Positions 2,301 to 20,164 of a DNA stretch of 24,334 bases are shown piece by piece (within the stretch, counting starts at the first letter, position 1; the number at the start of each line of letters is the position of its first letter). Under the pieces are notes generated by a model, which was not told the DNA's origin, searched no databases, and was given only the letters and a program-made list of their open reading frames with translations. This stretch comes from a virus. The DNA is taken from positions 1 through 24,334 of IMG/VR virus record IMGVR_UViG_3300020219_000067. One strand, written 5' to 3'. A program made the position numbers and the translations under genes.

Positions 2301-3869
2301 CTAAGCCGCCGACAGCAGCTGCTGTGGCGAATGGCTGGTGGTCAAAAGTACGGTCGGCACGTCGGCCAATCCACGGGTAGCTAAGGCCCACACGGCGGCC
2401 ATCAGCGCGTCGAAGTAGTCATCGCCCACTGCCGGCTTAACCATCTTGTAGCTCGGGTAGCTGGCCTTGGTTGGCTCGGGGCGGATATTTCCGAGCTGGC
2501 GAACAAGGGTGCGTATCTCGAGCGTTTCGGCGTTGGTCGGGTCCAAATCGTCGAAATAGGGGATCGCAGCACGCCCACCGTGGAACAATTGTTTCACAGA
2601 GACCGCCATTTGATGCTTGGTCATGCCCTCAAACCGCATCGGCGCGAACGCCCAACCCGGCCAGTTGCTGGCGGTAGACTGACCATCGCCAACCGCGCGA
2701 CGGTCGATTTGCGTCAAGCCACGTCGAAACAACTCGTCGTTCGCCGCCGTCATCATCCCCACGCCATACGCGTCGCCAATGGCGTAGTCCGGGTTGAAGT
2801 ATTCCCACAGCCCAAGGATGTCGTGCATGACCGCTGGTTCATCGGCACCCGGGGCCCAGCTGTGGCAGTAAATCACCGTCATCCAGTTGCCCATGGTCTC
2901 GGTGATCACCAGTGCGTGGCGGCTGCTGCTCGGGTTTTCACCGTGTCCGCCGGCGTCGTAGCCCAGCCCGATCAATCCGCGGCGCTTGTAGCGTTCTCCC
3001 GGCATCGGATCGGCCAGCTGCAGGTTGGCAGTCAGCCCCACCTGCATGGCGCGGCGGATGTGTTTTTCCCACACCAGGTTGCGGCTGCTTACGTTGCGAC
3101 ACAGCAGCTGGCGTATGTACTCATCCGCATCGAGTTGCTCGCGCATCATCAGCATAAAACTTTCTTGCAGAATGCCGAGCTGGATGCCGAGGTACATGTC
3201 CACCGTGGGCAAGATCGTGTACTCGCCTGATTCGACCAGGCCGGTCAGCGTGTCCGCCCCTTTGAAAACGCCGGTGATGCGGATCTGCGGCTTGTTCTTT
3301 GATTCGTTGCTGGCACCCAGGCGGCGGCTGGCGCCCATCATGAGCAGGAATCGACCATAAAGCCGTTCATGCGGCATGTCGTCCACTTCCTCGAGCGATG
3401 CGGCTGTCATGTCGCCGCCGTCGATCTGGGCCATGATGCCGTAGCTGCGCGCGATTGACCGGTTCTCGAATTGATACGTAGTGTCTGCCAGCTGCGGGCG
3501 ACCGCTGCGGTACCGGATGAAAGCGCTCAAGATCGGGCTACGGCGTATCGCTTCCAAGTGGTAGCCGAGGTTGACGATCGCCTGCGCCTCGCGCGGCGCA
3601 ACGATGCCTATTTCTTGATCGGCATGCAGCGCGGCGTACATCAGCAAGTAAAGCTCTTTTATAGCCGTCTTGCCCGTTCGCCGACAGCTGAAGTCGATGG
3701 TGTTCTGGTGTTCATCCATCTCGATGCACTTGAGCACCTGCATCGGGTCAAGATCTACGTTGTGCACGTGTTTGTGCCACATCGCGTGGTCGCCAGCGAA
3801 GCGAAAAATCTCGCGCTCGGCAACGTTGTTGGATTGCATCCGATCGCTGCGAGACTGACGCTCAGCCAT
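2301..3869 (-). CDS. terL: Terminase large subunit (packaging ATPase/nuclease)
   Basis: The DNA-packaging motor subunit, which cuts concatemers and pumps DNA through the portal. With the start at 3869 it is 522 residues. The Walker A loop is C62-RRTGKT68, and a Walker B-like acidic stretch is TAASLEEVDDM. The C-terminal RNase H-like nuclease is marked by GYDAGG, YAIGDAYGVG and DDYFDALMAAVWAL, which supply the three expected acidic residues. I chose ATG 3869 over the in-frame ATG at 3887 because it gives an 8-nt ATGGCTGA overlap with the preceding stop, a junction type repeated elsewhere in this genome. The ribosome-site evidence is weak for both starts. The family call is strong; headful or cos packaging cannot be told from the sequence. 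Confidence 0.9.
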   Translation of the reverse strand: MAERQSRSDRMQSNNVAEREIFRFAGDHAMWHKHVHNVDLDPMQVLKCIEMDEHQNTIDFSCRRTGKTAIKELYLLMYAALHADQEIGIVAPREAQAIVNLGYHLEAIRRSPILSAFIRYRSGRPQLADTTYQFENRSIARSYGIMAQIDGGDMTAASLEEVDDMPHERLYGRFLLMMGASRRLGASNESKNKPQIRITGVFKGADTLTGLVESGEYTILPTVDMYLGIQLGILQESFMLMMREQLDADEYIRQLLCRNVSSRNLVWEKHIRRAMQVGLTANLQLADPMPGERYKRRGLIGLGYDAGGHGENPSSSRHALVITETMGNWMTVIYCHSWAPGADEPAVMHDILGLWEYFNPDYAIGDAYGVGMMTAANDELFRRGLTQIDRRAVGDGQSTASNWPGWAFAPMRFEGMTKHQMAVSVKQLFHGGRAAIPYFDDLDPTNAETLEIRTLVRQLGNIRPEPTKASYPSYKMVKPAVGDDYFDALMAAVWALATRGLADVPTVLLTTSHSPQQLLSAA

Positions 3870-4809
3870 TGCCTTCGCCCGCCGCATGCTCGATCAGGAT
3901 CGGATCGCGCGCGGAGTTGGCCTTCGCGTTGTTCACCAGGTCGCGCAACCCTTCCAGCGCCTTTGCCTGGCGCTGCTGGTATTCGAGTGCAGCTTCGGAC
4001 TGCTGCCCGGCAGCAGCGATGAACCCTTTCACGTTCTCGGCTTCGTCCACCGCCTTCGGTGTCATGCCCAAATCCGAAAGTCCCAAATTGAGCGAGGCGA
4101 TCAGATCTTTGAGCGGGCGCAGCAGTGGGTGCGCTTCGATTCGCTCGATGGTCTGTATGACATTGCCTTCTTCATCCTTGATCTGCGCCAAGTGCAGCCG
4201 CCCATCGGTGTCGAAGTGGAACTCGGGCCGCCGGATGGCACTGCTGTCGGCCAGGATCGTGCGCACGATGTCCTCCATGATCGCGGTGACGTTCGCGTGC
4301 AGCTCCGCGCGGATACCGGTCAGCAGTGTTGGGTCGCGGCTCTCGAACGCGACGTGGTGGCGCAGGTAGAGCTCCGTGCGTGAGCGGCAGGCCTTGTCGG
4401 CCCAGCTGCAGCCGTTGTTGAAGTACTCGCATGTCGAGCACTGCGCGTATGCGCCTGGCTTGGCAGGGAAATAGGTGGCTGTGCGCGCACTCAGGCCATG
4501 GGTCAGCGCGTTGAACCGCGTACGTCGGGCCTCTTCCGGCGTTGGGTGACCGCGCAAGTTCTCCCGCACCGCCGCTTTGCCCGCCTCGGTTTTTGGGCCC
4601 GTGGCGCTCGCCCACATTTTCAGCATTCGGCGCTGTTCTGCGCTTTGCCCGGACTCACTGCCGCAATCGGGGCAGCTGGCGGCGTACTGCCACGGGTGCC
4701 ACTCGTCTTGAGGCGCGTCAATCACGCGTGCAGGCGCTGCGGCAAAGCGCATATCGCAGCTGCCACAGTGAAAATCTACATCGTCGAGTTGAGGGCGACG
4801 CTTGCCCAT
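3862..4809 (-). CDS. Probable terminase small subunit-like protein with zinc ribbon
   Basis: A 315-residue protein ending inside the start of the large terminase, where the small subunit normally lies. The N-terminus has a zinc-ribbon pattern, C15-x2-C18 and C46-x2-C49. It is followed by GPKTEAGKAAVRENLRGHPT and ARRTRFNALTHGLSA. This GPKT..GK..-..N-ALKHG pattern is common in short phage proteins next to terminases. A second Cys-rich patch (CSTCEYFNNGCSWADKAC) follows, and the C-terminal half is helical with a Gln/Ala-rich coiled-coil-like end (residues about 265-300). At 315 residues it is longer than most small terminases. The DNA-recognition role is inferred from position and Cys clusters; a different DNA-binding packaging accessory is possible. 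Confidence 0.6.
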   Translation of the reverse strand: MGKRRPQLDDVDFHCGSCDMRFAAAPARVIDAPQDEWHPWQYAASCPDCGSESGQSAEQRRMLKMWASATGPKTEAGKAAVRENLRGHPTPEEARRTRFNALTHGLSARTATYFPAKPGAYAQCSTCEYFNNGCSWADKACRSRTELYLRHHVAFESRDPTLLTGIRAELHANVTAIMEDIVRTILADSSAIRRPEFHFDTDGRLHLAQIKDEEGNVIQTIERIEAHPLLRPLKDLIASLNLGLSDLGMTPKAVDEAENVKGFIAAAGQQSEAALEYQQRQAKALEGLRDLVNNAKANSARDPILIEHAAGEGNG

Positions 4810-5811: not shown

Positions 5812-6244
5812 TAGGGGCTCTCCGTAAGTTGGCAGCGTGTTCTGGAGCGTGCGACGCGATAGCTTCGGTGATTGCTGCCTTCAAGGCTGCAGGCTTTACA
5901 AAGTCCGCAAGCCGGCGATTTTTTCTTGGCCTGGCACCCGATGCGGAATGCACCATGCGATTGCTCGCGACCTCGGCCAGAAACTCGACCGCTTCCACCG
6001 GTACGCGGTTGATGTGCGTCACGTTGCAGGGCGCAATGTCATTCGTAACGCCGCGATATCCGCCCAGACGCACCGTCGTCGACGTCGCTCGCCCCGACAG
6101 CCATGGGCCATCCAAGCCAACGAATGTGTGCTCCTCAATGCAACCCATGCAGCGCTTATGCGTAAGCAGGTCGCCTTTTTTTACCGTGCGCTGAACGATG
6201 GCAACGTGCGCCACGCGAGCGAGGTCAAGTTGATTGTTAATCAT
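5600..6244 (-). CDS. Hypothetical phage protein, possibly two products from one frame
   Basis: A 214-residue protein starting at ATG 6244 (MINNQLDLARVAHVAIVQRT), with GAGGG upstream and an 8-nt overlap (ATGATTAA) with the end of the methyltransferase fusion. The N-terminal part has CMGCIEEH and a Gly/Arg-rich beta-type segment (GRATSTTVRLGGYRG), followed by an Ala-rich helix. At 5811 an in-frame ATG (MSDVHNGTEQKTNCVAWF) is preceded by GGAGAG at ideal spacing, like the ribosome sites of other genes here. The last 69 residues, a helical domain, may therefore also be made alone, or the frame may be a fusion of two former genes. No family recognised. Confidence 0.65.
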   Translation of the reverse strand: MINNQLDLARVAHVAIVQRTVKKGDLLTHKRCMGCIEEHTFVGLDGPWLSGRATSTTVRLGGYRGVTNDIAPCNVTHINRVPVEAVEFLAEVASNRMVHSASGARPRKNRRLADFVKPAALKAAITEAIASHAPEHAANLRRAPMSDVHNGTEQKTNCVAWFAGRIDGLDAAIAIADQLMDRGTSTGEAIAEVRNRIERMRLSTKADHARLGAK

Positions 6245-7712
6245 TGGTGGTTGCCCTCTCTGTTGGTTGCGCACCCGCCTTGGCTCTAGGATTTCTCCCA
6301 GCCGCGGTCTGCGAAAAATCGGAAAATGGCATCCCGTGATTGCTGATCAATGCATCGGAACATGCCCGGTTCAGCCATAAGACTTCGGTGCGGGCCTTGC
6401 CCTTTTCGGCAAAGTGCTTACGCTCAACCCGCTCCCAGCCAGCGTATAGCTCGCGGTCGTAGAGCGGGCAGGGGTAGCCGGACAGCGCCACCATCCCGGT
6501 CAGTGCGTGCAGGGTTTCGGCAAGGCGGTGATGATCGGCGTCGTTCATCTCGTGCCGGTAGCCGTGCGTGCCGCTCTTGCGCTTGGTGATCGCGCTGCGT
6601 GTGGCGTGGACATAGGGCGGATCCACGTAGTGCAACGTGTTCGGCCCGTCGAACTGCTGCATCACTTGGCACCCGTCGCGGTTTTCTATCACCACGCGCT
6701 GCAGCCGCGCGGTGAAAGCGGGGATCGCATCCGAGAAGGTTGCCCACTCGGCCGAAGGAAAGCTGCGGTTGCTCGGGCGCTTGCTGCGAAACCCGCTGCG
6801 GCACGTACGCGTCACAGAGTCGGAGCCGTGCCCGAAAAACGAGCGCACGATGGTCTTGTGCACCGCTTCCAGATCGTCCATCGACGGCGTATAGCTCCAC
6901 TCGAACTCAGCGCGGACGTAAGGCGTGAACGCGAGCCGGCGTTGCAGCTCGGCCGCGGCCGACGACTCGCGCAGAATCCGGAACACGCGCACGATGTCGC
7001 CATCCAGATCGTTGTACACCTCGCCCAGCGAGCGGGCCTTAAGCATCAGCACGCTGGCCGCTCCACCGTATGGCTCGACGTAGAACTGGTGCGGCGGGAA
7101 GAACCGCAACACCCATGGCGCCAGGCGAAACTTGCCGCCCTGACCGCTCGCAACCTGTCGAATGTGCCCACGAACGCGATCAACGGCGGCGTGCGTACCG
7201 TGGTCGACGCGATTGGCGTGACTGTCGAAGATGAAACGTGGTTCGTAGATCGCTTCCAGGTGCGGCACCAGCCAGTGATGCACCACCCGGTCACCGAAGT
7301 CGGGGGCGTGTATTTCGCGCGCCTTCGGCCTGCATGCAACGAAACAGTTGGTTGGAGACGGCGACCAAGTTCCGGTGTTGAGCCGTTCCTGGATAGTGAA
7401 GAGGCGATCCGGCCAGTGCGCTTCGAACGCGAGCTGGTTGGCGCTCGCGACCTTATTGCGCCTGGCACGGCGCAACGCCTTGTAGAGCGCTCCGAAGCTG
7501 ACCACACCCTGACACTCACCGACCGGCGACGGACCCGACCACGACCGGACCGCACGCACGCGCGCGCTGTTGTCGATGTGGTTGTTGTTGACGTTGCCGT
7601 TGTTGAAGTCGACGCACCAGCGCACCGAGGCAGACCAGGCGGCCTGCAACGACGCTTCCTCGCATTCTTGAGACCCGTCCGAACATCTTTGTAGGTAGCG
7701 CGGCTTCGTCAT
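6237..7712 (-). CDS. Truncated DGR reverse transcriptase fused in frame to a D12-class adenine DNA methyltransferase
   Basis: The frame is open for 491 codons. Codons 1-69 read through the template repeat; its ATG overlaps the avd stop (ATGA). Codons about 70-190 are the N-terminal part of a DGR reverse transcriptase: FGALYKALRRARR, GTWSPSPTNCF, PKAREIHAPDFGDRVVHHWL, FIFDSHANRVDHGTHAAVDR. The palm motifs with the catalytic aspartates, including YxDD, are missing. From codon 192 it becomes a D12-class N6-adenine methyltransferase: GGKFRLAPWVLRFFPPH, YVEPYGGAASVL (SAM-binding motif I), EVYNDLDGDIVRVFR, HYVDPPY (catalytic motif IV), SGYPCPLYDRELYAGW. The junction is near 7140-7160. Only the few residues before the GGK of a normal D12 enzyme seem lost, so methylation may survive. 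Translation may start at ATG 7712 or GTG 7505. Confidence 0.85.
   Translation of the reverse strand: MTKPRYLQRCSDGSQECEEASLQAAWSASVRWCVDFNNGNVNNNHIDNSARVRAVRSWSGPSPVGECQGVVSFGALYKALRRARRNKVASANQLAFEAHWPDRLFTIQERLNTGTWSPSPTNCFVACRPKAREIHAPDFGDRVVHHWLVPHLEAIYEPRFIFDSHANRVDHGTHAAVDRVRGHIRQVASGQGGKFRLAPWVLRFFPPHQFYVEPYGGAASVLMLKARSLGEVYNDLDGDIVRVFRILRESSAAAELQRRLAFTPYVRAEFEWSYTPSMDDLEAVHKTIVRSFFGHGSDSVTRTCRSGFRSKRPSNRSFPSAEWATFSDAIPAFTARLQRVVIENRDGCQVMQQFDGPNTLHYVDPPYVHATRSAITKRKSGTHGYRHEMNDADHHRLAETLHALTGMVALSGYPCPLYDRELYAGWERVERKHFAEKGKARTEVLWLNRACSDALISNHGMPFSDFSQTAAGRNPRAKAGAQPTERATTND
7145..7505 (-). pseudogene. Remnant of the DGR reverse transcriptase (N-terminal domain only)
   Basis: About 120 codons match the start of DGR reverse transcriptases, from the opening LY.A..RAR helix through the REIHAP...DRVVHH block to the RVxxGTHAAxDR loop. 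In intact relatives the next segment is the first catalytic aspartate strand, then the YxDD box. Here the sequence instead changes to methyltransferase after GHIRQVASG. A whole DGR RT is roughly 300-400 residues, so about two thirds is absent. No other frame in the window supplies the missing part. GTG 7505 is the likely ancestral start, just beyond the template repeat. Confidence 0.8.
7518..7654 (-). repeat. DGR template repeat (TR)
   Basis: A 137-bp sequence that is near-identical to VR2 and, over 130 bp, to VR1. On the coding strand the core (7568-7609) is a run of adenine-bearing codons, seven of them AAC, reading DFNNGNVNNNHIDNS. It is flanked by a G/C-rich 3' half (7518-7567) that would act as the initiation-of-homing partner. 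At its 3' end TR reads GGTGAGTG where both VRs read GGTCAGTAA, the usual kind of IMH*/IMH difference. The TR sits between avd and the RT remnant, the order known from the Bordetella phage BPP-1 DGR. Confidence 0.95.
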
Positions 7713-8146
7713 AAATTGGCCTCCGAAGAGGCGATGCGAGTACTCAGTATCTGGGCACGCTCCGAACCGCCGTGGCGGTGCGGATTCTGGCCCTTGGGGT
7801 GTTTCATCAGTTCACGGTGCCACCCGCCAGCCTGCCGTCCAAGATCGATCGCAATCCGCATAATCATCTCGAACTGGCGCAAACCGGCGAACGCCTGCAG
7901 GCGCTGCCCGATCTGCATGGAGAGCTTGAGCTTGTCAACCTGCCACCGCAGCTTGGCTACCCACTTCGAGACGCGCTCTTGGTCACGCCAGGCGCGATGC
8001 GCGAGCGTGGCGGCCTTCGTCGCCAACTCGCGTAATTCTGCACCAATCGCATACTTGTGGAATCGCGCGAAGCCGCGAACAGCTTGCTCAATTTCGAGCA
8101 TCAGCCGTTCGGCCGTCTTCACTATCGGGGGCAGTGCAAAGCTCAT
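7709..8146 (-). CDS. avd: DGR accessory variability determinant (Avd-like)
   Basis: A 145-residue, Arg/Lys-rich, almost wholly helical protein between the targets and the TR, the standard place of Avd. Avd forms a pentameric four-helix-bundle barrel that binds nucleic acid and the RT and is needed for mutagenic cDNA synthesis. Characteristic parts are FHKYAIGAELRELATKAATL, the ALAHRAW-type middle helix, LSMQIGQRLQAFAGLRQFE and IDLGRQAGGWHREL. The start MSFALPPIVK at 8146 was chosen over the ATG at 8164 because GGTGAT lies at a usable distance; nothing lies before 8164. Its stop overlaps the ATG of the TR-containing frame. The C-terminus is basic and disordered-looking. Confidence 0.85.
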   Translation of the reverse strand: MSFALPPIVKTAERLMLEIEQAVRGFARFHKYAIGAELRELATKAATLAHRAWRDQERVSKWVAKLRWQVDKLKLSMQIGQRLQAFAGLRQFEMIMRIAIDLGRQAGGWHRELMKHPKGQNPHRHGGSERAQILSTRIASSEANL

Positions 8147-8173
8147 GCTGCGATCACCATGCAAAAGCGCAAA

Positions 8174-8608
8174 TTACTGACCGACCGGCGACGGACCCGA
8201 CCACGACCGGACCGCACGCACGCGCGCGCTGTTGACGATGCGGTGGTAGCAGACGTGGCCGTTGAAGAAGTCGACGCACCAGCGCACCGAGGCAGACCAG
8301 GCGGCCTGCCTAGATGTCCAGTACCAGGTGCTCTTCACATCATCGAGTGCGGGATCGGCTGCGGGGTTGTAACGCGAGCGGTCAATGCGTCGGCTCAGCT
8401 CGATGTCGTCGGGCTGGCGCCAGTCGTCGAATCCGCCGGCGCGGAGTTTCTTCACTACCTGGGCGGCTTTATTCGCCGAAACTTCATCAGGGTGTGCGTC
8501 TTTGAACAGCCACAGCAAATTGGCCGATGTTTCGTGAGTGAAGACGTGCGGATGTCCGGTTTCGGAAACGGGCCGAAGATTCGCGTCCAACTGGATATCA
8601 GTGTTCAT
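8174..8608 (-). CDS. DGR target protein 1, DUF1566/C-type-lectin-like fold
   Basis: A 144-residue protein whose C-terminal third is VR1. The N-terminus (MNTDIQLDANLRPVSETG) leads into a whole DUF1566-type domain: NLLWLFKDAHPDEVS, RAGGFDDWRQPDDIELSRRI, SRYNPAADPALDD, STWYWTS. The variable strand DFFNGHVCYHRIVNS follows, and the constant end is ARVRAVRSWSGPSPVGQ. In known DGR proteins this fold displays the variable side chains as a ligand-binding face. There is no signal peptide and no membrane or fibre domain, so how it reaches a virion or other site is unclear. The ATG at 8608 is preceded by AAAGGA. It is about half identical to target 2 outside the VR. Confidence 0.88.
   Translation of the reverse strand: MNTDIQLDANLRPVSETGHPHVFTHETSANLLWLFKDAHPDEVSANKAAQVVKKLRAGGFDDWRQPDDIELSRRIDRSRYNPAADPALDDVKSTWYWTSRQAAWSASVRWCVDFFNGHVCYHRIVNSARVRAVRSWSGPSPVGQ
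8180..8309 (-). repeat. DGR variable repeat VR1
   Basis: A 130-bp copy of TR positions 7518-7647. It differs at 9 positions, all of them template adenines on the coding strand; there are no other differences. The core 8230-8271 encodes DFFNGHVCYHRIVNS where TR has DFNNGNVNNNHIDNS. The constant G/C-rich end runs up to the stop codon. VR1 and VR2 also share TAATTTGC just beyond the stop. Confidence 0.95.
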
Positions 8609-8678
8609 GTGGATTCCTTTAGCTGGGCGCTTGCGCACCACGTCGGCACGCGAGCACGGAGACATTCCAAAAAGCAAA

Positions 8679-9122
8679 TTACTGACCGACCGGCGACGGA
8701 CCCGACCACGACCGGACCGCACGCACGCGCGCGCCGGAGGCGATGTGGAGGTAGCCGACGGAGCCGTAGCCGAAGACGACGCACCAGCGCACCGAGGCAG
8801 ACCAGGCGGCCTGCAACGACGTCCAGTACCAATCGGGCCGCACGTTGTAGAGATCTGTGTTCGCGGCCGGACCACTGCGGCTGTAGTCGACACAGGTGAT
8901 TTGCTCCTGCGGAACGCCGAGGCGCCAATCGTCGAAGCCACCGGCACGCAGTTCGCTCACGATTCGATCTGCTTCGGCTGCAGTGACACTTTCGGAGTGC
9001 GCGTCTTCGCGCAACCACAGCAGGTTCATCGAAGGGTTGTGAGTGAATACGTGAGGCTGGCCGTCAGAGAGGGGCTGGAGGTTCGCGTCTAGTTTTATTT
9101 CAGTGTTGGTGTTGGTGTTCAT
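8679..9122 (-). CDS. DGR target protein 2, DUF1566/C-type-lectin-like fold
   Basis: A 147-residue paralogue of target 1. After an Asn/Thr-rich start (MNTNTNTEIKLDANLQ) it has NLLWLREDAHSESVT, RAGGFDDWRLGVPQEQITC, VDYSRSGPAANTDLY and DWYWTS, all hallmarks of the DUF1566/Lcl C-terminal domain. It then carries VR2 with the variable strand VFGYGSVGYLHIASG and the constant end ARVRAVRSWSGPSPVGQ. Its ATG overlaps the stop of the preceding small gene (ATGA, 9119-9122), and GGAG lies 9 nt upstream, so it is translationally coupled to the primase operon. No signal peptide is seen. The ligand is unknown. Confidence 0.88.
   Translation of the reverse strand: MNTNTNTEIKLDANLQPLSDGQPHVFTHNPSMNLLWLREDAHSESVTAAEADRIVSELRAGGFDDWRLGVPQEQITCVDYSRSGPAANTDLYNVRPDWYWTSLQAAWSASVRWCVVFGYGSVGYLHIASGARVRAVRSWSGPSPVGQ
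8685..8821 (-). repeat. DGR variable repeat VR2
   Basis: A 137-bp copy of the full TR. It differs at 15 positions, all template adenines on the coding strand; all other positions are identical. The core is 8735-8776. Eleven codons carry changes, including AAC to GGC, TAC, TCC and CTC, so the protein strand is quite different from both TR and VR1. Confidence 0.95.
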
Positions 9123-9307
9123 GCTCTTACGCTCCGGTTATTTGGCCTTGCGGCCGGTGTGCGAGCGCGCGGCCCAGCGGCTTCGCGCTTGCGATCTTGT
9201 TCAGCCGCGTGCTTCCACGCGAACAGCAGTTCGTCCGTAATCGGCGCCCACGCGCCTTCCTCAAGCGGTGGCACCACAGTCAACATCGGCGCGGTCGATG
9301 TGCTCAT
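9119..9307 (-). CDS. Small protein of unknown function between primase and DGR
   Basis: A 62-residue protein starting MSTSTAPMLTVVPPLEEGAW. Its ATG overlaps the primase stop (ATGA, 9304-9307), and its stop overlaps the start of DGR target 2 (ATGA, 9119-9122). The middle is a short amphipathic helix (ELLFAWKHAAEQDRKREA), and the end is basic and Arg/Pro-rich. The double overlap argues that it is real and translated between its neighbours. No family recognised. Confidence 0.6.
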   Translation of the reverse strand: MSTSTAPMLTVVPPLEEGAWAPITDELLFAWKHAAEQDRKREAAGPRARTPAARPNNRSVRA

Positions 9308-12039
9308 GACGCGTAGCCTGCATCTGGTGTGGACAGGTACAACCCGTAGCCGCGCATGCGATCGAGCGACAGTGCAGTCAGGTGGGCAACGCGCTTGCTG
9401 TTGATGCGTTTGTCGCACTCGTCTTTGACCACCAGTCCGGCGTGAGCGAGCTGCGCAGCAAACACACGGCCAGTCTTCACCGGCAGGCCGTCCCACATCT
9501 GTCGCAGTCGACTGTCGGTGCTGATGTGATCGATTACGTGTTGCGGGCGAAGCAGGATGCACGCTTCTCCGTCTACCTCGTCGAACAAGTACGGGTGTTC
9601 GAACCGGTGCGATTCGATCTCGCTGGTCAGCGTCTCGAGAATCCACACCCAGGGCTGGCGATCACCACTTGTGCGCTTGATGAAAGCATTCATCTCTTCG
9701 CGCAGATCAGGCAGGAAATTCCCCTGCTCTGGGTCTACACCGGAAAACTCACACAGCAGCGACCAGGCCAATGCGAGCGCGCTGTAGTTGCGCATCACGC
9801 GGCTGGCACCCGGGTCATCCGCATCAAGCGATGGCGCCCCGTTGTCGCCCGTGGCGCGGCTTTTCGCGCCGCACCACTTTTCCCACTTGGTGAGTCGCTC
9901 CAGCACTTGCTCGCGCGTTAGCTCACACAGAAATTGCAACCATTGCCGCACCGGGAAACGCGGCAGGTTTTCTGGCATTAGCGGACCCATGCGCTTGCTC
10001 AAGTCCGTCTGGACCAACTTGCCAAGCAGGCTTCGAACCGGCACATCTTCGCCGGCCAAAAGCACGGGCGCACAAATTAGGTACGGCAGCATGTCGCTGT
10101 TGCGGCGTGTCGGCGTGTAGTTGTAGGCCTCCTGCAGCAGCGCAACCGCTTTGTCGATCACGTCCTGTTTGCGCGCGCTCAGCTCTTCCCATCCAACCGG
10201 GTGCGACGTGTAACTGACGCTGCACAGCTGTCGAAACTCCGTCATCAGCGACTGACCGCTGAATACGGTCATGCCCACGGTTCGCTCGAGGCGTTTCACC
10301 AGGGTGCTCTTGCCGCTTCCTTTCTCGGCCTGCATGACAAGGTGTGGCCAGAAGCCAATGAACGCTTTAAGGTGCGCGCCCAGCGACCACACCAGCGCCA
10401 GCAGCGCGCGATTACCTTTGAACGTGGACTGATATGCAGCAATCACGGTCTGCGCGTCCGCTGTCGTGCCGCTCGCGAACACCAGGTTGTTATACGGGCA
10501 CTGCTTTTCGGGGTCCCTGAAGTAACAGTCCGGACCTTCGTTCACCACCGGCTTGCAGTTGCGGTAGGCCAATCCGACAAAGTTGATCGCGTCGCGCGCG
10601 CCGCACTCGGCGCTGCGCTCCATGATGTTGACCAGGCGCAGCAAGCGCGCCTGATTGAACACCGGGCCAAAGCGCTTCCACATATCGCTGTTGTGCAGCT
10701 TGTCGTCGTCGAAGACGCGACGTATCAGCTTCGCGCCGTGCCGCGGCGTCTGCACCCCAACTGCGAACACGACCTCGGGCTGCAGGTCCAGCTCGCCGGT
10801 CATCATTGCCGTAGCACCGGCGATGCTGACGCGCGATATTGCGGCCACGCGAAAGCCAGCGACATCCTCGAACTGCGGCTGCTCGTTTCCTTCCGCAGTG
10901 GTCTCGACCTTGGTCACGTAGGACGTGAAGTCGGCTTTGCAGCGAAACCGCCAATAGACGGCGAAGTCGTGCATCGGCAGAAACACACGATTGCGACCCT
11001 GCGGGCCGTCCTTACCGGGTAAGCCAGGGATAGCCCACGGCTCCACGTCCACCATCCGCGCCTTCAGCTCTGCGGGCATCTTCTGCGCGATATCGGCAAC
11101 ATCGTTTAGTTCGTTTTTGTACCACTGCGTCTGGTCGACCATTTGGCAGGCGATGTTCAGACCCACCAGCAGGTCATAGATCACCCAGCTCGCCTCGGCA
11201 CCAGCGCGTTTGCCTTTTTCGTTGGGCAAGTCGGCGTCAAGCGCCAGAATCACCTGCTTGCCGATCAACAGCGACCAATCGATGTTGGGCGCGTTACCGG
11301 TGCCTCGAATTGCCAGCGCAGCGGTAAAGGCCATGCCGCAGCTGTCGACGCATAGCGCATTGATGGCGCTCTCGACTACATAAACGGTGCGGGCTTGCTT
11401 CAGCTTCACCGGACATGCGGTCCAAAACACCCCATCCTTCTCGCCCTGCGTCTGGGTCTTCACTCCGCCGTTCAACACAGGGTCCGCATAGCGCACGTCT
11501 ACAGCCACCGCGGTGCCCATCGAATCACGCACGATGAACGCCACGCCCGGGCCGGCATGGCCAACGTCACCCGCAGGTTTTTTGTCGCTGACCCATGTTG
11601 TGAATCCGATTGTCTTGCGCGCAATTCCCAGCTTGATCGCCACTTCCTTGACGCCGCGGCTCAGCAAATACGCCGTGGCCGGCGCAGTGTCCTGCATGCA
11701 GCGATCAGCGATGAAATCAACCGTCGAGCGACGGGCACGCGGCGCGATGTCCTTGCGATCGTGGGCTATACCGTAGATCTCATGCAGCCGCCGCATTCCG
11801 GAGGGCACATCGGCGATGCCCTCCACGAACATAATTAAACTGACGCAGTCGCCCCCGGCGTCGTCGTCGCTGAAGTCTTTCCACGCTTTGCCATCTTTGA
11901 AAATGCTGAGGCTGGGCGACTTGTCCGCATGATGCGGGCTGCAGTAGTTGCCGGTGTCGCCACCGGGGCGCTTGAGGCTCAGCCGCGACGCCAAGTCGTG
12001 CAGATCAATGATCCGTTTCAATTCAGCAATCGATGCCAT
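9304..12039 (-). CDS. Phage DNA primase/helicase (CHC2-type zinc finger, Toprim-like, ATPase)
   Basis: A 911-residue replication protein. The N-terminus has a primase zinc-finger-like block: YCSPHHADKSPSLSIFKDG, then GGDCVSLIMFVEG. A Toprim-like part follows, with VYVVESAINALCVD (the Glu) and VILALDADLP (the Asp-x-Asp). About two thirds along is a P-loop, MQAEKGSGKSTLVKRLERT, of a helicase-type ATPase. The protein probably unwinds and primes the phage origin. ATG 12039 (MASIAELKRIIDL) was chosen because the preceding gene stops 3 bp before it; the in-frame extension to 12219 overlaps that gene and looks non-coding. It starts a coupled run through the small gene at 9119-9307 into the DGR. Confidence 0.85.
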   Translation of the reverse strand: MASIAELKRIIDLHDLASRLSLKRPGGDTGNYCSPHHADKSPSLSIFKDGKAWKDFSDDDAGGDCVSLIMFVEGIADVPSGMRRLHEIYGIAHDRKDIAPRARRSTVDFIADRCMQDTAPATAYLLSRGVKEVAIKLGIARKTIGFTTWVSDKKPAGDVGHAGPGVAFIVRDSMGTAVAVDVRYADPVLNGGVKTQTQGEKDGVFWTACPVKLKQARTVYVVESAINALCVDSCGMAFTAALAIRGTGNAPNIDWSLLIGKQVILALDADLPNEKGKRAGAEASWVIYDLLVGLNIACQMVDQTQWYKNELNDVADIAQKMPAELKARMVDVEPWAIPGLPGKDGPQGRNRVFLPMHDFAVYWRFRCKADFTSYVTKVETTAEGNEQPQFEDVAGFRVAAISRVSIAGATAMMTGELDLQPEVVFAVGVQTPRHGAKLIRRVFDDDKLHNSDMWKRFGPVFNQARLLRLVNIMERSAECGARDAINFVGLAYRNCKPVVNEGPDCYFRDPEKQCPYNNLVFASGTTADAQTVIAAYQSTFKGNRALLALVWSLGAHLKAFIGFWPHLVMQAEKGSGKSTLVKRLERTVGMTVFSGQSLMTEFRQLCSVSYTSHPVGWEELSARKQDVIDKAVALLQEAYNYTPTRRNSDMLPYLICAPVLLAGEDVPVRSLLGKLVQTDLSKRMGPLMPENLPRFPVRQWLQFLCELTREQVLERLTKWEKWCGAKSRATGDNGAPSLDADDPGASRVMRNYSALALAWSLLCEFSGVDPEQGNFLPDLREEMNAFIKRTSGDRQPWVWILETLTSEIESHRFEHPYLFDEVDGEACILLRPQHVIDHISTDSRLRQMWDGLPVKTGRVFAAQLAHAGLVVKDECDKRINSKRVAHLTALSLDRMRGYGLYLSTPDAGYAS

Positions 12040-12041
12040 GG

Positions 12042-12356
12042 TTACCAGCTTCTGATGTAGGTGGTGCTGAGGCTGGGTTCGCCGGCTTCCCACAGCCGGC
12101 AGGCGGGCGACTTGATCAGGATGTCGGTCGAGCGGGACCGGTCCCACTGCGACAACATCCGTCCACACTTGTAGAATCGCTGACGGTTCGAAAGCTCGCG
12201 AAACTTGCAGTGTGCGCAAGTGCTGCAGCTCTCGATGCTTGGGCCGGTACCGGGCGGCGCGGCGTACCCGTTCGCAACCTCAGTGCGCTTGATTCGCCGC
12301 ACGTTGCGGCGCGGCTTTTCGCCGAAAAGGTCACCGCCGTTCTTCGCGCGGTTCAT
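12042..12356 (-). CDS. Small Cys-rich (zinc-finger-like) phage protein
   Basis: A 104-residue basic protein with a cysteine pattern: SCSTCAHCKF, then RFYKCGRM about 20 residues later, and SPACRLWE about 20 residues further on. Similar small treble-clef-like proteins are common in early operons of proteobacterial phages and are thought to bind DNA or RNA. It ends 2 bp before the primase start and begins with an ATGA overlap with the preceding gene. The function is inferred only from the metal-binding pattern. Confidence 0.7.
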   Translation of the reverse strand: MNRAKNGGDLFGEKPRRNVRRIKRTEVANGYAAPPGTGPSIESCSTCAHCKFRELSNRQRFYKCGRMLSQWDRSRSTDILIKSPACRLWEAGEPSLSTTYIRSW

Positions 12357-13003: not shown

Positions 13004-13621
13004 CTAGCAAGCAGATTGAAGGGCGGCCGCAAGATCTTCGCGGTCGGGCAATGTGTAAACGGCGGTGGAGTCGCGCGAGTGGTGGCCAAGCGACGCCTGC
13101 ACGAACGCCTGTGGGTCTCGCCCGACACTTCGTTCCATGAGCCGCTTTGCCAAAGTGTGCCGCCACCAATGCGGTGTCGCTTTCACGCTAAGCTTTGACT
13201 GAGTGACCCAGTACTGCATGCGCAACTGGAACTGCCGCACGGTCATTCGCTGAGACTGCCGCGACCAGATCAGGGGCGCATCTGCGTCTGCCGTTAGCTT
13301 TAGGTCGACCCGCAGTTTCAGCAGGGCGCGCAGTGCAGCCATCGCCCCGGTGTTAAGCGGCACGCTGTATCCGCGTCGACCCTTCACGATGTCATCTCGC
13401 AAAGTGAGGCGTTTCACCGCCAGCGCGTCGCGCGCGTCCGCGACGGTCAGTCCAGCAATCGAGCCAATGCGAATGCCTGTTTGTCGCGCGAGCGTCATCC
13501 AGTACAGGTCGCGCTTGGCGTAAGGGCTGTCGATCGACTTGACGTGATGCAACAGCTGTTTTTCCTCCCGCTCCGTGAGGTATCGGTTGAACACTTGGCG
13601 ATTGGTGATGGCCTCATGCAT
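13004..13621 (-). CDS. Short tyrosine recombinase (catalytic domain only)
   Basis: A 205-residue phage-integrase-family protein. It has the first arginine in TGIRIGSIAGLTVADAR, a lysine/arginine hairpin KGRRGYSVPLN, the H-x-x-R box as HWWRHTLAKRL, the late histidine in ASLGHHSRDS, and the nucleophile in TAVYTLPDRE. A separate N-terminal core- or arm-binding domain is missing, so it is shorter than a usual integrase (about 350). It lies inside the early operon, overlapping the previous gene by 8 nt (ATGCATGA). It may resolve genome dimers or invert a segment. It differs clearly from the integrase at 18779-19804. Confidence 0.8.
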   Translation of the reverse strand: MHEAITNRQVFNRYLTEREEKQLLHHVKSIDSPYAKRDLYWMTLARQTGIRIGSIAGLTVADARDALAVKRLTLRDDIVKGRRGYSVPLNTGAMAALRALLKLRVDLKLTADADAPLIWSRQSQRMTVRQFQLRMQYWVTQSKLSVKATPHWWRHTLAKRLMERSVGRDPQAFVQASLGHHSRDSTAVYTLPDREDLAAALQSAC

Positions 13622-13985
13622 TGGCCACCTCACCGAATCGTTCTGGGTTCATCGCGTCGGCCGCTTCCTCGAGCAGCTCCGCAGCAATATCGGCTTCATC
13701 TGGTGTGAAGCGCAACATCAACGCCCGACGCAGCAGAGCTACGCTGCCAGCATCGGACGCGACCACCGACCAGTTTTCTTCTCGAATTTGTGTAAGCGTG
13801 GAATGTGTTCTCGAGGCACGCGCATGTCGGGACATCTGACGCATCAGCTCGGCCAGCGCCAACGCCTCCAGCATCGACAACTGCATGCAGAAGGGGCCGG
13901 CCATAAGCGCAATGAATCGGCGTGACTCCGGCGACCACACGAACGCGCAAGAGTTGATGCTCTTGGCTAAACCGTTCTCCATCAT
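13614..13985 (-). CDS. Hypothetical early phage protein
   Basis: A 123-residue protein starting MMENGLAKSINSCAFVWSPE. GGAG lies 9 nt upstream and there is an ATGA overlap with the preceding gene. The middle is an Ala/Leu/Met-rich helix (LSMLEALALAELMRQMSRHA), and the end is acidic (DEADIAAELLEEAADAM). No family recognised. The overlaps on both sides and the codon pattern support it. Confidence 0.6.
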   Translation of the reverse strand: MMENGLAKSINSCAFVWSPESRRFIALMAGPFCMQLSMLEALALAELMRQMSRHARASRTHSTLTQIREENWSVVASDAGSVALLRRALMLRFTPDEADIAAELLEEAADAMNPERFGEVANA

Positions 13986-15259: not shown

Positions 15260-15481
15260 TTAGTTGGCAACCTCCGCAGCCGTGGCCGATGCATAGATTT
15301 TCTTAAGGCTGAGTCGAGGGAATTTCTGCTGAAGCAAGATGGCCAGCCGGGGGCTGGGCATCTTGTTGCCAAGCTCCCACTGGCTAACAGTCGCCTTGGT
15401 AATTCCAAGCGATTCGGCCAATCCGCGCTGAGATAGTCGGCGGGCTTGGCGTGCTGCGCGGATTGGATGCGGGTTGTCCAT
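15260..15481 (-). CDS. Cro-like repressor (XRE-type HTH)
   Basis: A 73-residue protein made almost wholly of a lambda-repressor-like helix-turn-helix: LSQRGLAESLGITKATVSQW, then ELGNKMPSPRLAILLQQKF. It is divergent from the CI-like gene, with 80 bp between them. Its recognition helix (TKATVSQWELGNK) is nearly the same as that of the CI-like protein (TKSAISQWELGNK), so both should bind the same operators. The start at 15481 (MDNPHPIRAARQ) was taken because it begins a normal domain. The upstream in-frame ATG at 15544 would run through the operator region. Confidence 0.82.
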   Translation of the reverse strand: MDNPHPIRAARQARRLSQRGLAESLGITKATVSQWELGNKMPSPRLAILLQQKFPRLSLKKIYASATAAEVAN

Positions 15482-15561: not shown

Positions 15562-15993
15562 ATGAAGGCCGGGGCCAGATTCGGGGAGCGATTTAGAGAC
15601 GCGCGTACGGCCGCGCGCCTGTCCCAAGATGTGCTTGCCGATCGATTGGGAATTACCAAATCGGCGATCAGCCAGTGGGAGCTGGGCAACAAAGCCCCAC
15701 GGTTTGAGCTATGGGCGTCGATACGTCGCGAACTTGGCGCATCGTTGGATCAACTCATTTGCGGTGACTCTTTGCCACGATCTGGCGCATTGCGCAGCGC
15801 AGAACAATCGCCGGTGTATCAGATTGGTAAGGTCTCTCCAGCGGACCACAGGAGTCGCCAAATCGTTCAGCTTTTTGGGCAACTAAGCGAATCGCAACAG
15901 AAGGCTATGGTTGAACTTATGCGCAGCATTGTTCCAACTCAAGCGGATCACACTGATCGACGCCGCCAAAAGAAAGCGGAGCCCCGCGCCTGA
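15562..15993 (+). CDS. CI-like phage repressor (XRE-type HTH)
   Basis: A 143-residue plus-strand protein. The N-terminal 65 residues are a helix-turn-helix domain: FRDARTAARLSQDVLADRLG, then ITKSAISQWELGNKAPRFEL. The C-terminal part is short and helical (QIVQLFGQLSESQQKAMVEL) and ends in a basic tail. It lacks the Ser/Lys S24 peptidase domain of lambda CI, so induction by RecA-style self-cleavage is unlikely. It is more like the short C2-type or oligomerising repressors. The ATG follows a palindrome closely and no normal ribosome site is evident, so the message may be leaderless. Confidence 0.82.
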   Translation: MKAGARFGERFRDARTAARLSQDVLADRLGITKSAISQWELGNKAPRFELWASIRRELGASLDQLICGDSLPRSGALRSAEQSPVYQIGKVSPADHRSRQIVQLFGQLSESQQKAMVELMRSIVPTQADHTDRRRQKKAEPRA

Positions 15994-16443: not shown

Positions 16444-18084
16444 CTACGCTGCGTGCCGCTTGAGACAAAACCGCGGCAACCGTGAGACCACAATGGCGGT
16501 TCGTAGTAAGGAGTGCTCGGGGAGCCAATTCGCAGCACTATGAACCGAGATGGGCTGGGCAACCAGCCGCGTTGGATCGTAGCGGATCTCCACGGTGTCG
16601 GCCTGAACAGTGATCGACTTAACGAACCGTGAATAAAACGAGCGGCTCGTCTTGGCATTTTCGGTGTCAAGCAATTCGCCTCGTAGAAACTCGGCCAGAT
16701 CCACCAACGACGCATCGTCCATGTGCACTCGGCGCGACGGAACGGTCTCCAGGGCAGCGATTTCAGCCTCTAACGCTTTCATGATCGCGCTGTTGTCGCG
16801 AAGACGTGGCGCTATGTCGGCTAGGTCGGGCGCATCCCTGCCCTGCACCTCCAGAACGTCCAGCAAGCGCTTATTGCGCAGCTGGACTGAAGACAGGCGC
16901 TTGGTCAGTTCCGATCGCTTCTTGCCGCGTTCTGCGACGTAAGCGACCGCCTCTGCTTCGATCGCATCCGCCACAACGCGCATATTCTCTGGTGTGATGA
17001 CCTGATCGACAATAATTTCCGACATCCACGGGTCCAAGACGTCGGCACGAATGCGCCTGGACTCGCAATCCTTGTGCTTTAACGATCGCTGGCAGTTGTA
17101 ATAGGCGTATTGCTTGCTCCGCCCTCGAGCCGTCTCTATCTGCATTGCTTGCCCACACAAACCGCAGCGCATCAAGCCGGTGAAAGCATGCGTGCTTCTC
17201 GAACTCCCAGCATCACCGGTTTGCTGAGGACTCGAAGCAGCGATGATTGCCTGCACACGCTCCCAATGCTCGACGGGAATCAACGGAGGATAAGCGTCGA
17301 CAACAACCCACGCCGACGGGTCCTTTATTCGACCGCCGCGAGCTTTTCGGCCGTAGATGGTGCGCCCGATCACCATCGGGTTTTTAAGAATGTACAGAAC
17401 GCTGGTCTTGTCCCATTTTTTGCCGTCGCGCCTCACAGCGCCCAGGCTATTTAGCGCCTCGCTTATCTGAGTTGCACCGAAGCCGTTTGCACGGCGATCG
17501 AACATCTCGATGACCCACGGCGACTCGTTTTCGTTGGGCACCAAGCGGCGACGCTTGGGTTGCACTAAATCGGGTACCACTTTGAATCCATAGGGGGCAA
17601 CGCCGCCGCAGAAAAATCCGCACTTGGCGTTCCTGACCATTGATCGAGTCGTGTCTTTCGATGTGCCACGCGACTTCGCTTCATCCATGACCTCAAACAT
17701 CGAATCGAGCAGCCACCCTTCATCGGTTTCAAGGTCGATATCGGCAGACGTGTAGATTAGTCGTACGCCGCCGGCGGTCAGCTCTCGTTTGCGCGTCATC
17801 GCTTCGAATCTGTTTCGCGCGAAACGAGAGCTCGACCAAGTGATCAGATAATCGACCTCGGTAACCACGCAGAACTCGACCGCATCATCGAATGTCGGGC
17901 GATTGCTTTCCTTAAACGCCGACCGACCGCCGTCAACGAAGGAGCGAACCACTGCGGCGCCTAGCTCGGCAGCTTTACGGACCCCGGCTTCGACCTGTGA
18001 TGGAATAGACACGTCGGCCGAGGCCTGTTTTCGATCGCTAACGCGGGCATAGAGCACCGCAGTCTTGGTGCCGGGTTGTGTCAT
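16444..18084 (-). CDS. Large serine recombinase (integrase)
   Basis: A 546-residue large serine recombinase. The catalytic domain begins VLYARVSDRKQ, with the nucleophile at Ser16. It continues through YLITWSSSRFARNRFE and the GTSKDTTRSMVRNAK region to the recombinase domain (GGVAPYGFKVV, VLYILKNPMVIGRTIYG). A zinc ribbon follows (MRCGLCGQAM, then YYNCQRSLKHKDC), and after it a coiled-coil region (residues about 400-450). Such enzymes join attP and attB in one direction without host factors and need a directionality factor to excise. It is coupled by ATGA to the gene upstream. Its neighbour at 18779 is an unrelated tyrosine integrase. Confidence 0.9.
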   Translation of the reverse strand: MTQPGTKTAVLYARVSDRKQASADVSIPSQVEAGVRKAAELGAAVVRSFVDGGRSAFKESNRPTFDDAVEFCVVTEVDYLITWSSSRFARNRFEAMTRKRELTAGGVRLIYTSADIDLETDEGWLLDSMFEVMDEAKSRGTSKDTTRSMVRNAKCGFFCGGVAPYGFKVVPDLVQPKRRRLVPNENESPWVIEMFDRRANGFGATQISEALNSLGAVRRDGKKWDKTSVLYILKNPMVIGRTIYGRKARGGRIKDPSAWVVVDAYPPLIPVEHWERVQAIIAASSPQQTGDAGSSRSTHAFTGLMRCGLCGQAMQIETARGRSKQYAYYNCQRSLKHKDCESRRIRADVLDPWMSEIIVDQVITPENMRVVADAIEAEAVAYVAERGKKRSELTKRLSSVQLRNKRLLDVLEVQGRDAPDLADIAPRLRDNSAIMKALEAEIAALETVPSRRVHMDDASLVDLAEFLRGELLDTENAKTSRSFYSRFVKSITVQADTVEIRYDPTRLVAQPISVHSAANWLPEHSLLRTAIVVSRLPRFCLKRHAA

Positions 18085-18778: not shown

Positions 18779-19804
18779 TCAAGCGTGTCCGGGCTTGGCC
18801 TTTGCAATATCTCGCACCGATTCGAGTAGTTGGTTTTTCATTTTCGCGAGCGGATTGGAGCGGTCGACAATTTCGCGCAAACGGCGTGCGGCTAAGTGCG
18901 TGTAGATCGCGGTCGACTTCGGATCCTCATGGCCAAGCAACGCCTGGCGCTGAAGAATGTCGACGCTCGACTCAGCAAGCTCGGTGCCGTACAGGTGTCG
19001 GGCTGCATGCGGGTGTAGCTTGCTGCGATGGATGCCGGCGCGTTCGCCATTGCGTTCAATCACGTATCGCAGACCGCGTGCGCTTATACGACGACGTTCG
19101 CCGTGGAATTCGTGCGTCGGTATGGATCCACTGTTCAACGAGACGAACAGAACTTGGTCACCCGTCGCTGTGCTGCGATCCAGCGCGGCCAGGTCGGGGT
19201 GAGCCAGATAGGCCTGCAACAGCGTCGCGGCTTCGCTCGGCACGGGTACCAAGCGCTCATTGCCACCCTTCTCTTTAACAGAAACGGTGAGCTGGTTGTG
19301 CGTCCAAGTAAGTGCCGATTCGTTGAGCCCTGTCAGGCCAGAGACACGCATGCCGCAGCCGATGAACATGGCAATCATCGATGCATCACGCAGGCCGGCG
19401 AACGTGCCGATGTCCGGCGCCATCAGCAAACGTTCGGCATCCTGCAGCGACATACCCACTGGCAAACGTCGGCCGACCTTGGGGTAGTCCAGATCCTTTG
19501 CGACCGGTTTGCAAGCGCCCTGCGCTGCGGCATATCCATAGAAGTTCTTGATCGCCGACACCATCGGGCGCCTGGCCCGTGGGGCGAGTCCGGCTGCGTG
19601 GGCCACGGGTCCAGTGAATTCGGCCAGGTCGTTCGGTTTGAGCTGCAATAACGTCAGCTGCTTCTCTTTTGCCGCCCATTTTGACAGGCGCTCGATGATC
19701 TCGCCGTACTTTGCCACGGTGGCCTCTGCGCGTCCGCGATTGTGCTGCAGCCACTCAAGCCAACGGCGGGTCAATTCGAGCTCGGTCAAAATGGGTGGTG
19801 GCAT
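18779..19804 (-). CDS. Phage integrase, tyrosine recombinase
   Basis: A 341-residue tyrosine recombinase when started at ATG 19804 (MPPPILTELELTRRWLEWLQ). The SAM-like core-binding domain is residues about 1-100 (RAEATVAKYGEIIERLSKW). The catalytic domain has Arg in GCGMRVSGLTGL, a Lys in SVKEKGGNERLVPV, H-x-x-R in LHPHAARHLYGTEL, His in ALLGHEDPKS and the nucleophile Tyr in TAIYTHLAARR. This is a XerC/D- or phage-type enzyme. An extended frame to 19900 exists, but its extra codons are built from the CGTGGAA repeats (NVEVVE), so I regard them as upstream DNA. Two integrases side by side suggest either nested elements or a spare recombination system. Confidence 0.85.
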   Translation of the reverse strand: MPPPILTELELTRRWLEWLQHNRGRAEATVAKYGEIIERLSKWAAKEKQLTLLQLKPNDLAEFTGPVAHAAGLAPRARRPMVSAIKNFYGYAAAQGACKPVAKDLDYPKVGRRLPVGMSLQDAERLLMAPDIGTFAGLRDASMIAMFIGCGMRVSGLTGLNESALTWTHNQLTVSVKEKGGNERLVPVPSEAATLLQAYLAHPDLAALDRSTATGDQVLFVSLNSGSIPTHEFHGERRRISARGLRYVIERNGERAGIHRSKLHPHAARHLYGTELAESSVDILQRQALLGHEDPKSTAIYTHLAARRLREIVDRSNPLAKMKNQLLESVRDIAKAKPGHA

Positions 19805-19811
19805 TTCCCGG

Positions 19812-20164
19812 CGTGGAACGTGGAAGTAGGGGTCAGATTGCCCGCAAACCCGCGTGGTTGCAAGGTTTATGAGTTCCACGACTTCCACGTTTTGGACCAT
19901 ATACGAAGGTGAAAACGTGGAAGTGCTTTTCGCTCAAACGTTTGTTTGCGTGGAACTCTCTTTGCTAGGTCCTCTATATATCTCTCTCTTTTAAATCAAT
20001 CTCTTAGAGAGAGAGAATAGGGGAATGTGAACAAATAGTGAAGTGTAACTATTTGGCTAAAACGTGGAAGCTGGAAACAATAAACGTGGAAGTTTTAGGC
20101 AAGAACGTGGAGGGTCTCTTGTGACCGATCAATGGGTTACAAATTGAAAAGGCCAATTTCCACG
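19812..20164. repeat. Cluster of CGTGGAA direct and inverted repeats
   Basis: The heptamer CGTGGAA or its complement occurs nine times exactly: plus strand 19812, 19819, 19916, 19949, 20063 and 20085; minus strand 19874, 19883 and 20158. There is one near copy at 20106 (CGTGGAG). The fuller consensus is AAACGTGGAAGT. Chance would give well under one copy in 350 bp. The array covers the region upstream of the integrase gene and could be integrase arm sites, an iteron-like origin or a regulator array. An AT-rich stretch with a TC/AG inverted repeat lies in its middle. Confidence 0.75.
19981..20016. repeat. TC-repeat/AG-repeat inverted structure
   Basis: TCTCTCTCT (19981-19989) can pair with the AG run at 20006-20016 across an AT-rich loop. 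It lies in the lowest-GC part of the window, between the CGTGGAA repeats. It could be a cruciform, a terminator for either side, or a DNA-unwinding element. Confidence 0.45.

Follow-up and report, generated by a model that had tools for sequence, protein, structure and literature searches.

Is the diversity-generating retroelement (DGR) of the viral record IMGVR_UViG_3300020219_000067 still able to diversify its target genes, or do its repeats preserve the trace of an activity that has ended? The window analyzed here is the whole stretch of 24,334 nucleotides of that record (positions 1 to 24,334), and all features of the cassette lie on its minus strand. A first-pass annotation had described one template repeat (TR), two variable repeats (VR1 and VR2) and an Avd-like gene, and was silent on the condition of the reverse transcriptase (RT), which turned out to be the decisive feature of the locus. 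By its repeats, its target genes and its Avd the locus is a real DGR, and by the criterion of the RT it is a remnant, with the N-terminal part of the enzyme joined in frame to a DNA adenine methyltransferase (Dam). We consider it very probable that this is the DGR of a temperate-type tailed phage and that it was recently inactivated.

Adenine-restricted substitution of the repeats

The 137-bp core of the TR (7518-7654) contains 20 adenines, 19 of them within 7568-7609, the substituted span that the first-pass annotation had correctly described together with its seven AAC codons. The coordinates and mismatch counts that it had given for the repeats were reproduced by minus-strand alignment, which was gap-free for VR1 (8180-8309) against TR 7518-7647 (130 bp, 9 mismatches) and for VR2 (8685-8821) against TR 7518-7654 (137 bp, 15 mismatches). 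When the mismatches were classified by template base, 9/9 in VR1 and 15/15 in VR2 fell at TR adenines (p = 7.6e-9 and 4.0e-16, respectively; hypergeometric, 20 adenines in the 137-bp core), in agreement with the earlier claim of adenine-only substitution. The mismatches at non-adenine template positions that had been named as evidence to the contrary were absent from the aligned core (0 of 227 non-adenine sites), which also ruled out duplication followed by random drift as the origin of the repeats. At least one VR was altered at 16 of the 20 TR adenines. The same replacement was found in VR1 and VR2 at three sites (7588, 7586 and 7583) and unlike bases at 13 further sites; the two repeats were altered independently of each other.

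For comparison, the nearest cassettes were collected from viral contigs and from genomes of Dyella, Rudaea, Lysobacter, Stenotrophomonas and a Burkholderiales metagenome-assembled genome, and those labelled L002-L016 and L020-L026 define a Xanthomonadales/Burkholderiales prophage DGR lineage. Directly beyond the core, position 7517 of the minus strand is G in the TR and C in both VRs. Because this step is identical in every relative examined, with its flanks also conserved, we read it as the boundary between the initiation of mutagenic homing sites of TR and VR (IMH* and IMH) and not as a breach of the adenine rule. No hairpin of the type known from Bordetella phage BPP-1 was detected 3' of VR1 or VR2 (no stem of at least 6 bp). 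It was likewise missing after most VRs of relatives with an intact RT, so its absence here was not taken as a sign of decay. The VRs, unlike the TRs, are followed by an element of loose consensus, approximately CAGTnATnGGCCTYTTGGCC (8140-8180 and 8645-8685 in the window, and likewise in relatives), which takes the place of the BPP-1 hairpin in this lineage.

A truncated RT joined in frame to Dam

The open reading frame (ORF) at 6237-7712 encodes 491 aa, composed of a TR-encoded leader, an RT N-terminus (aa ~70-191) and a Dam-type N6-adenine methyltransferase (aa ~191-451). Residues 70-191 correspond to the N-terminal part of DGR RTs (phrog_1423), and residues 74-188 match residues 16-130 of the 328 residues of the BPP-1 RT (PDB: 8ub7). 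Aligned with 21 relatives, the window departs from the RT family just upstream of the first catalytic motif, LQLD, and the SQ and YVDD motifs, found in 20/21 relatives, are missing from its ORF. The retained RT fragment (7140-7523) is accordingly devoid of all three palm motifs, the missing share of the enzyme is about 60% when measured against BPP-1, and no match to RVT_1 was found anywhere in the 24-kb record. Residues 191-451 were assigned to phage DNA adenine methyltransferases (phrog_56, E = 5e-53; PF02086 above cut-off), and residues 185-484 share 46-50% identity with the Dams of phages F116, Sansa and MMP7. The Dam part (6237-7139) keeps GGK (motif X), EPYGGAAS (motif I) and DPPY (motif IV), while its original start and some 11 residues from the N-terminus were lost, with RT sequence in their place. 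An AlphaFold model of the fusion built from an 8-sequence alignment was uninformative (mean pLDDT 33).

The junction lies at 7134-7139, in a GGCGGC common to the reading frames of RT (SGQGG) and Dam (HGGK). Across the joint the window reads AGC GGT CAG GGC GGC AAG, at that place the relatives have ...AGC GGx CAG GGC GGC GGC... in their RT genes, and the sequence of dam genes is ...TAC CAC GGC GGC AAG.... At the DNA level, the window resembles independent dam genes as far as 7142-7143 and no further, a limit that lies no more than about 4 bases from the joint. An exact 35-base pattern spanning the joint matched two more IMG/VR contigs, 3300020057_000414 (L018) and 3300020203_000471 (L019), whose alignments with the window extend for 6.1 and 6.7 kb (99.95-99.97%) and contain 3 and 2 single-nucleotide polymorphisms (SNPs), respectively. 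An assembly chimera at the joint is unlikely, since the same junction occurs in these two further contigs.

A contig carrying the RT of this phage in intact form was found neither with the RT fragment as protein query nor by pattern scan. Several searches among the relatives gave no intact RT with Dam after it; one of them ran without a positive control, and its negative is weak. Dam was found neither in the 15 viral records searched nor in those loci of the relatives that were examined, and the search for related loci via the primase in IMG/VR gave none that was confirmed. The in-frame RT::Dam fusion as a route of inactivation was not found in the literature searched, and RT-dead DGRs themselves are already known. 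The first-pass annotation had invoked adenine-specific mutagenic retrohoming as in BPP-1; this explains the repeats, and the layout is indeed BPP-1-like, but the working cassette that it implied did not stand, given an RT that is truncated and fused to Dam.

Present activity and alternative explanations

Because the catalytic palm is gone, the cassette would be unable to retrohome without an RT from elsewhere; what the record attests is mutagenesis in the past and not that the cassette is active today. Most likely, it was functional until recently and has since been switched off. The absence of any change at the 227 non-adenine sites would place the last retrohoming no further back than about 1.3% divergence (95% bound by the rule of three), and thus recently, and the loss of the RT was probably later still. 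RT-inactivated DGRs with clean adenine-only VRs were read as cases of very recent inactivation by Schillinger and colleagues (PMC3521204). The first-pass annotation had also pointed to other VR alleles in related phages as a check. VR1 was identical in L018, the sole other contig that covers it, though L018 differs elsewhere from the window, and an exact-pattern search for other VR2 alleles gave no match. L018 carries a single SNP in the RT fragment. The resulting E133K affects a position without variation among the 21 aligned relatives (15 after near-duplicate removal), and the window itself carries H171 where all aligned relatives have K; both changes would be consistent with relaxed constraint. 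Thus the identity of VR1, the changed RT residues and the missing catalytic domain all argue for an inactive cassette, each within its limits.

We propose the following course of events. With an intact RT and Avd, the TR transcript would have been reverse-transcribed with mistakes at its adenines, and the resulting cDNA would have replaced the VRs. An illegitimate deletion within one genome, or recombination with another, at the common GGCGGC may then have cost the RT ~60% of its length and dam its first ~11 codons; as the simplest event, it would take away the RT palm and thumb and leave the GGK of Dam in frame. Both VR alleles would thereby have been frozen, leaving an in-frame fusion through which Dam could still be expressed. 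Several points weigh against this account. In a leave-one-out count at conserved RT sites, the window deviates no more than one intact relative does (3 versus 3). The record is a linear 24-kb fragment, compared with 43.7 kb for a backbone relative, and a second RT in the phage or host is possible. Three contigs are few, and besides the window VR1 is covered by one of them and VR2 by none. Moreover, the ancestral gene order and the event itself were not directly seen, since none of the relatives found has Dam after an intact RT.

Continued diversification is conceivable if the DGR is non-autonomous, with TR, spacer and Avd intact and the RT provided in trans by the phage, a co-resident prophage or the host. 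The preserved TR-spacer RNA region (380 nt after the TR) and Avd, the VRs free of drift, and a precedent for trans action between DGR loci in Thiohalocapsa (PMC10907252) all fit such a system, but we regard it as unlikely, because no RT lies within 24 kb and two contigs that are 3 SNPs apart over 6.1 kb have the same VR1. An invariant RT residue also segregates, though this is equally expected of an unused fragment. Slightly less likely still is a phage that retains template RNA, Avd and targets, has traded its RT for the Dam fusion and borrows one from a co-resident prophage, so that diversification would be conditional on the company it keeps.

We give little credence to an artefact, in which the main population would have an intact RT and a separate dam, while the contigs would stem from a rare deleted form or from a misjoined assembly. 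The same DGR locus can indeed be present in a population in both broken and unbroken form (PMC10907252), and variants can be collapsed into one contig; nevertheless, the junction is exactly equal in three separately named assemblies with differing SNPs, the stretch common at the joint is ~6 bp, far below assembler word lengths, and protein and pattern scans turned up no intact version. Least probable of all, in our estimate, is a functional fusion whose RT N-terminal region serves the methyltransferase, for instance by targeting it through binding to RNA or Avd. The reading frame continues unbroken across the joint, and Dam has preserved its motifs GGK, EPYGG and DPPY, but an in-frame joint is also expected if Dam expression alone was selected, because Dam lost its own start. 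Furthermore, RT residues E133 and K171 vary, and RT::Dam is known only from this phage in the searches made. Recent inactivation of the DGR by the junction remains the reading that we prefer.

Cassette context and comparison with known systems

On the minus strand, target gene 2 (8679-9122, 147 aa) is followed by target gene 1 (8174-8608, 144 aa), Avd (7709-8146) and the fusion ORF. The target genes carry VR2 and VR1, respectively, at their C-termini and belong to the Lcl_C family (PF07603; E = 5.9e-16 for target 2 and 5.8e-16 for target 1), and for these two paralogs a C-type-lectin-like fold is predicted from family alone. Avd starts at an ATG within the ORF 7709-8164, and its stop overlaps the next ATG (ATGA). 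The Avd-like gene previously proposed between targets and TR was borne out by matches to phrog_3206 (E = 6.7e-12), NF033474 (E = 1.4e-6) and bAvd (E = 4.9e-5), the latter two significant although under their curated cut-offs.

In the surrounding phage genome, terminase, a glutamine-amidotransferase-like gene and primase occur in the same order as in Microcystis phage vB_MaeS-yong1 (window 2301-4809, 9304-12219), and the DGR-Dam cassette sits between the amidotransferase-like gene and the primase, as in a cargo slot. That the phage is temperate is suggested by integrase-type genes together with a CII-like regulator. Within 7 kb there are three recombinases of integrase type (13004-13633, 16444-18084 and 18779-19900), two of them tyrosine-type and the third a long serine-type enzyme, suggesting nested or successive integrations. 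Near the CII-like regulator lies an inverted repeat (15363-15406 / 15649-15692) with 44-nt arms of 84% identity, 242 nt apart. Rfam and tRNA scans gave no match.

The Xanthomonadales/Burkholderiales lineage contains the closest relatives of the window (RT 58-71% and Avd 44-55% identity) and shares with it Lcl_C-like targets and the avd-ATGA-TR-RT ORF layout. Unlike the window, these cassettes have an intact RT with YVDD (20/21, the exception being L003), and no Dam was found in those of their records and loci that were searched. The ATGA overlapping the avd stop (7712 in the window) opens a frame through the TR into the RT in 20/20 cassettes (the window and 19 relatives), and in L013, L014 and L025 the TR frame differs from the target frame, yet the ORF remains open. 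These reading frames suggest that translation of the TR gives the RT an N-terminal leader in this lineage; TRs overlapping the RT ORF were already included in DiGReF group 3 (PMC3521204). In L003 (IMGVR_UViG_3300048930_000661, 7833-8972), an in-frame RT deletion of roughly 70-90 residues joins HALLR to the RDR that follows the YVDD motif, which is itself gone, a second natural loss of the palm in the lineage. The VRs of L003 are also substituted only at adenines (10 and 12 substitutions).

A DGR census usually relies on TR/VR pairs together with an RT hit. Adenine-only VRs alone are no proof of activity, because here the textbook adenine pattern stands beside an RT unable to work. The window offers a natural example of a DGR frozen by one junction that makes a new fusion gene, and together with L003 it suggests that phages of this lineage may turn off diversification by deleting the RT palm.

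Compared with BPP-1 (mtd-VR, avd, TR, brt), the window has the same one-strand order of target-VR, avd, TR and RT, adenine-only TR/VR differences, the IMH/IMH* step at the VR 3' end and an Avd of the same family. It differs from BPP-1 in having two small Lcl_C targets beside the primase instead of a tail fibre, an RT ORF that passes in frame through the TR from the ATGA at the avd stop, an RT truncated and fused to Dam, and no 7-10 bp hairpin after the VRs. The Dams of Pseudomonas phage F116, Caulobacter phage Sansa and Meiothermus phage MMP7 have their own ATG start (M...RYHGGK), whereas that of the window was replaced by the RT. RT-disabled DGRs have been reported with a nonsense mutation in Ruminococcus gnavus, an insertion element in Acaryochloris marina and a frameshift in Bacteroides sp. 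9_1_42FAA (PMC3521204). These cases and the window share a broken RT beside a VR/TR pair that still differs only at adenines; in contrast to them, the RT of the window was lost by an in-frame junction to dam that is common to three contigs.

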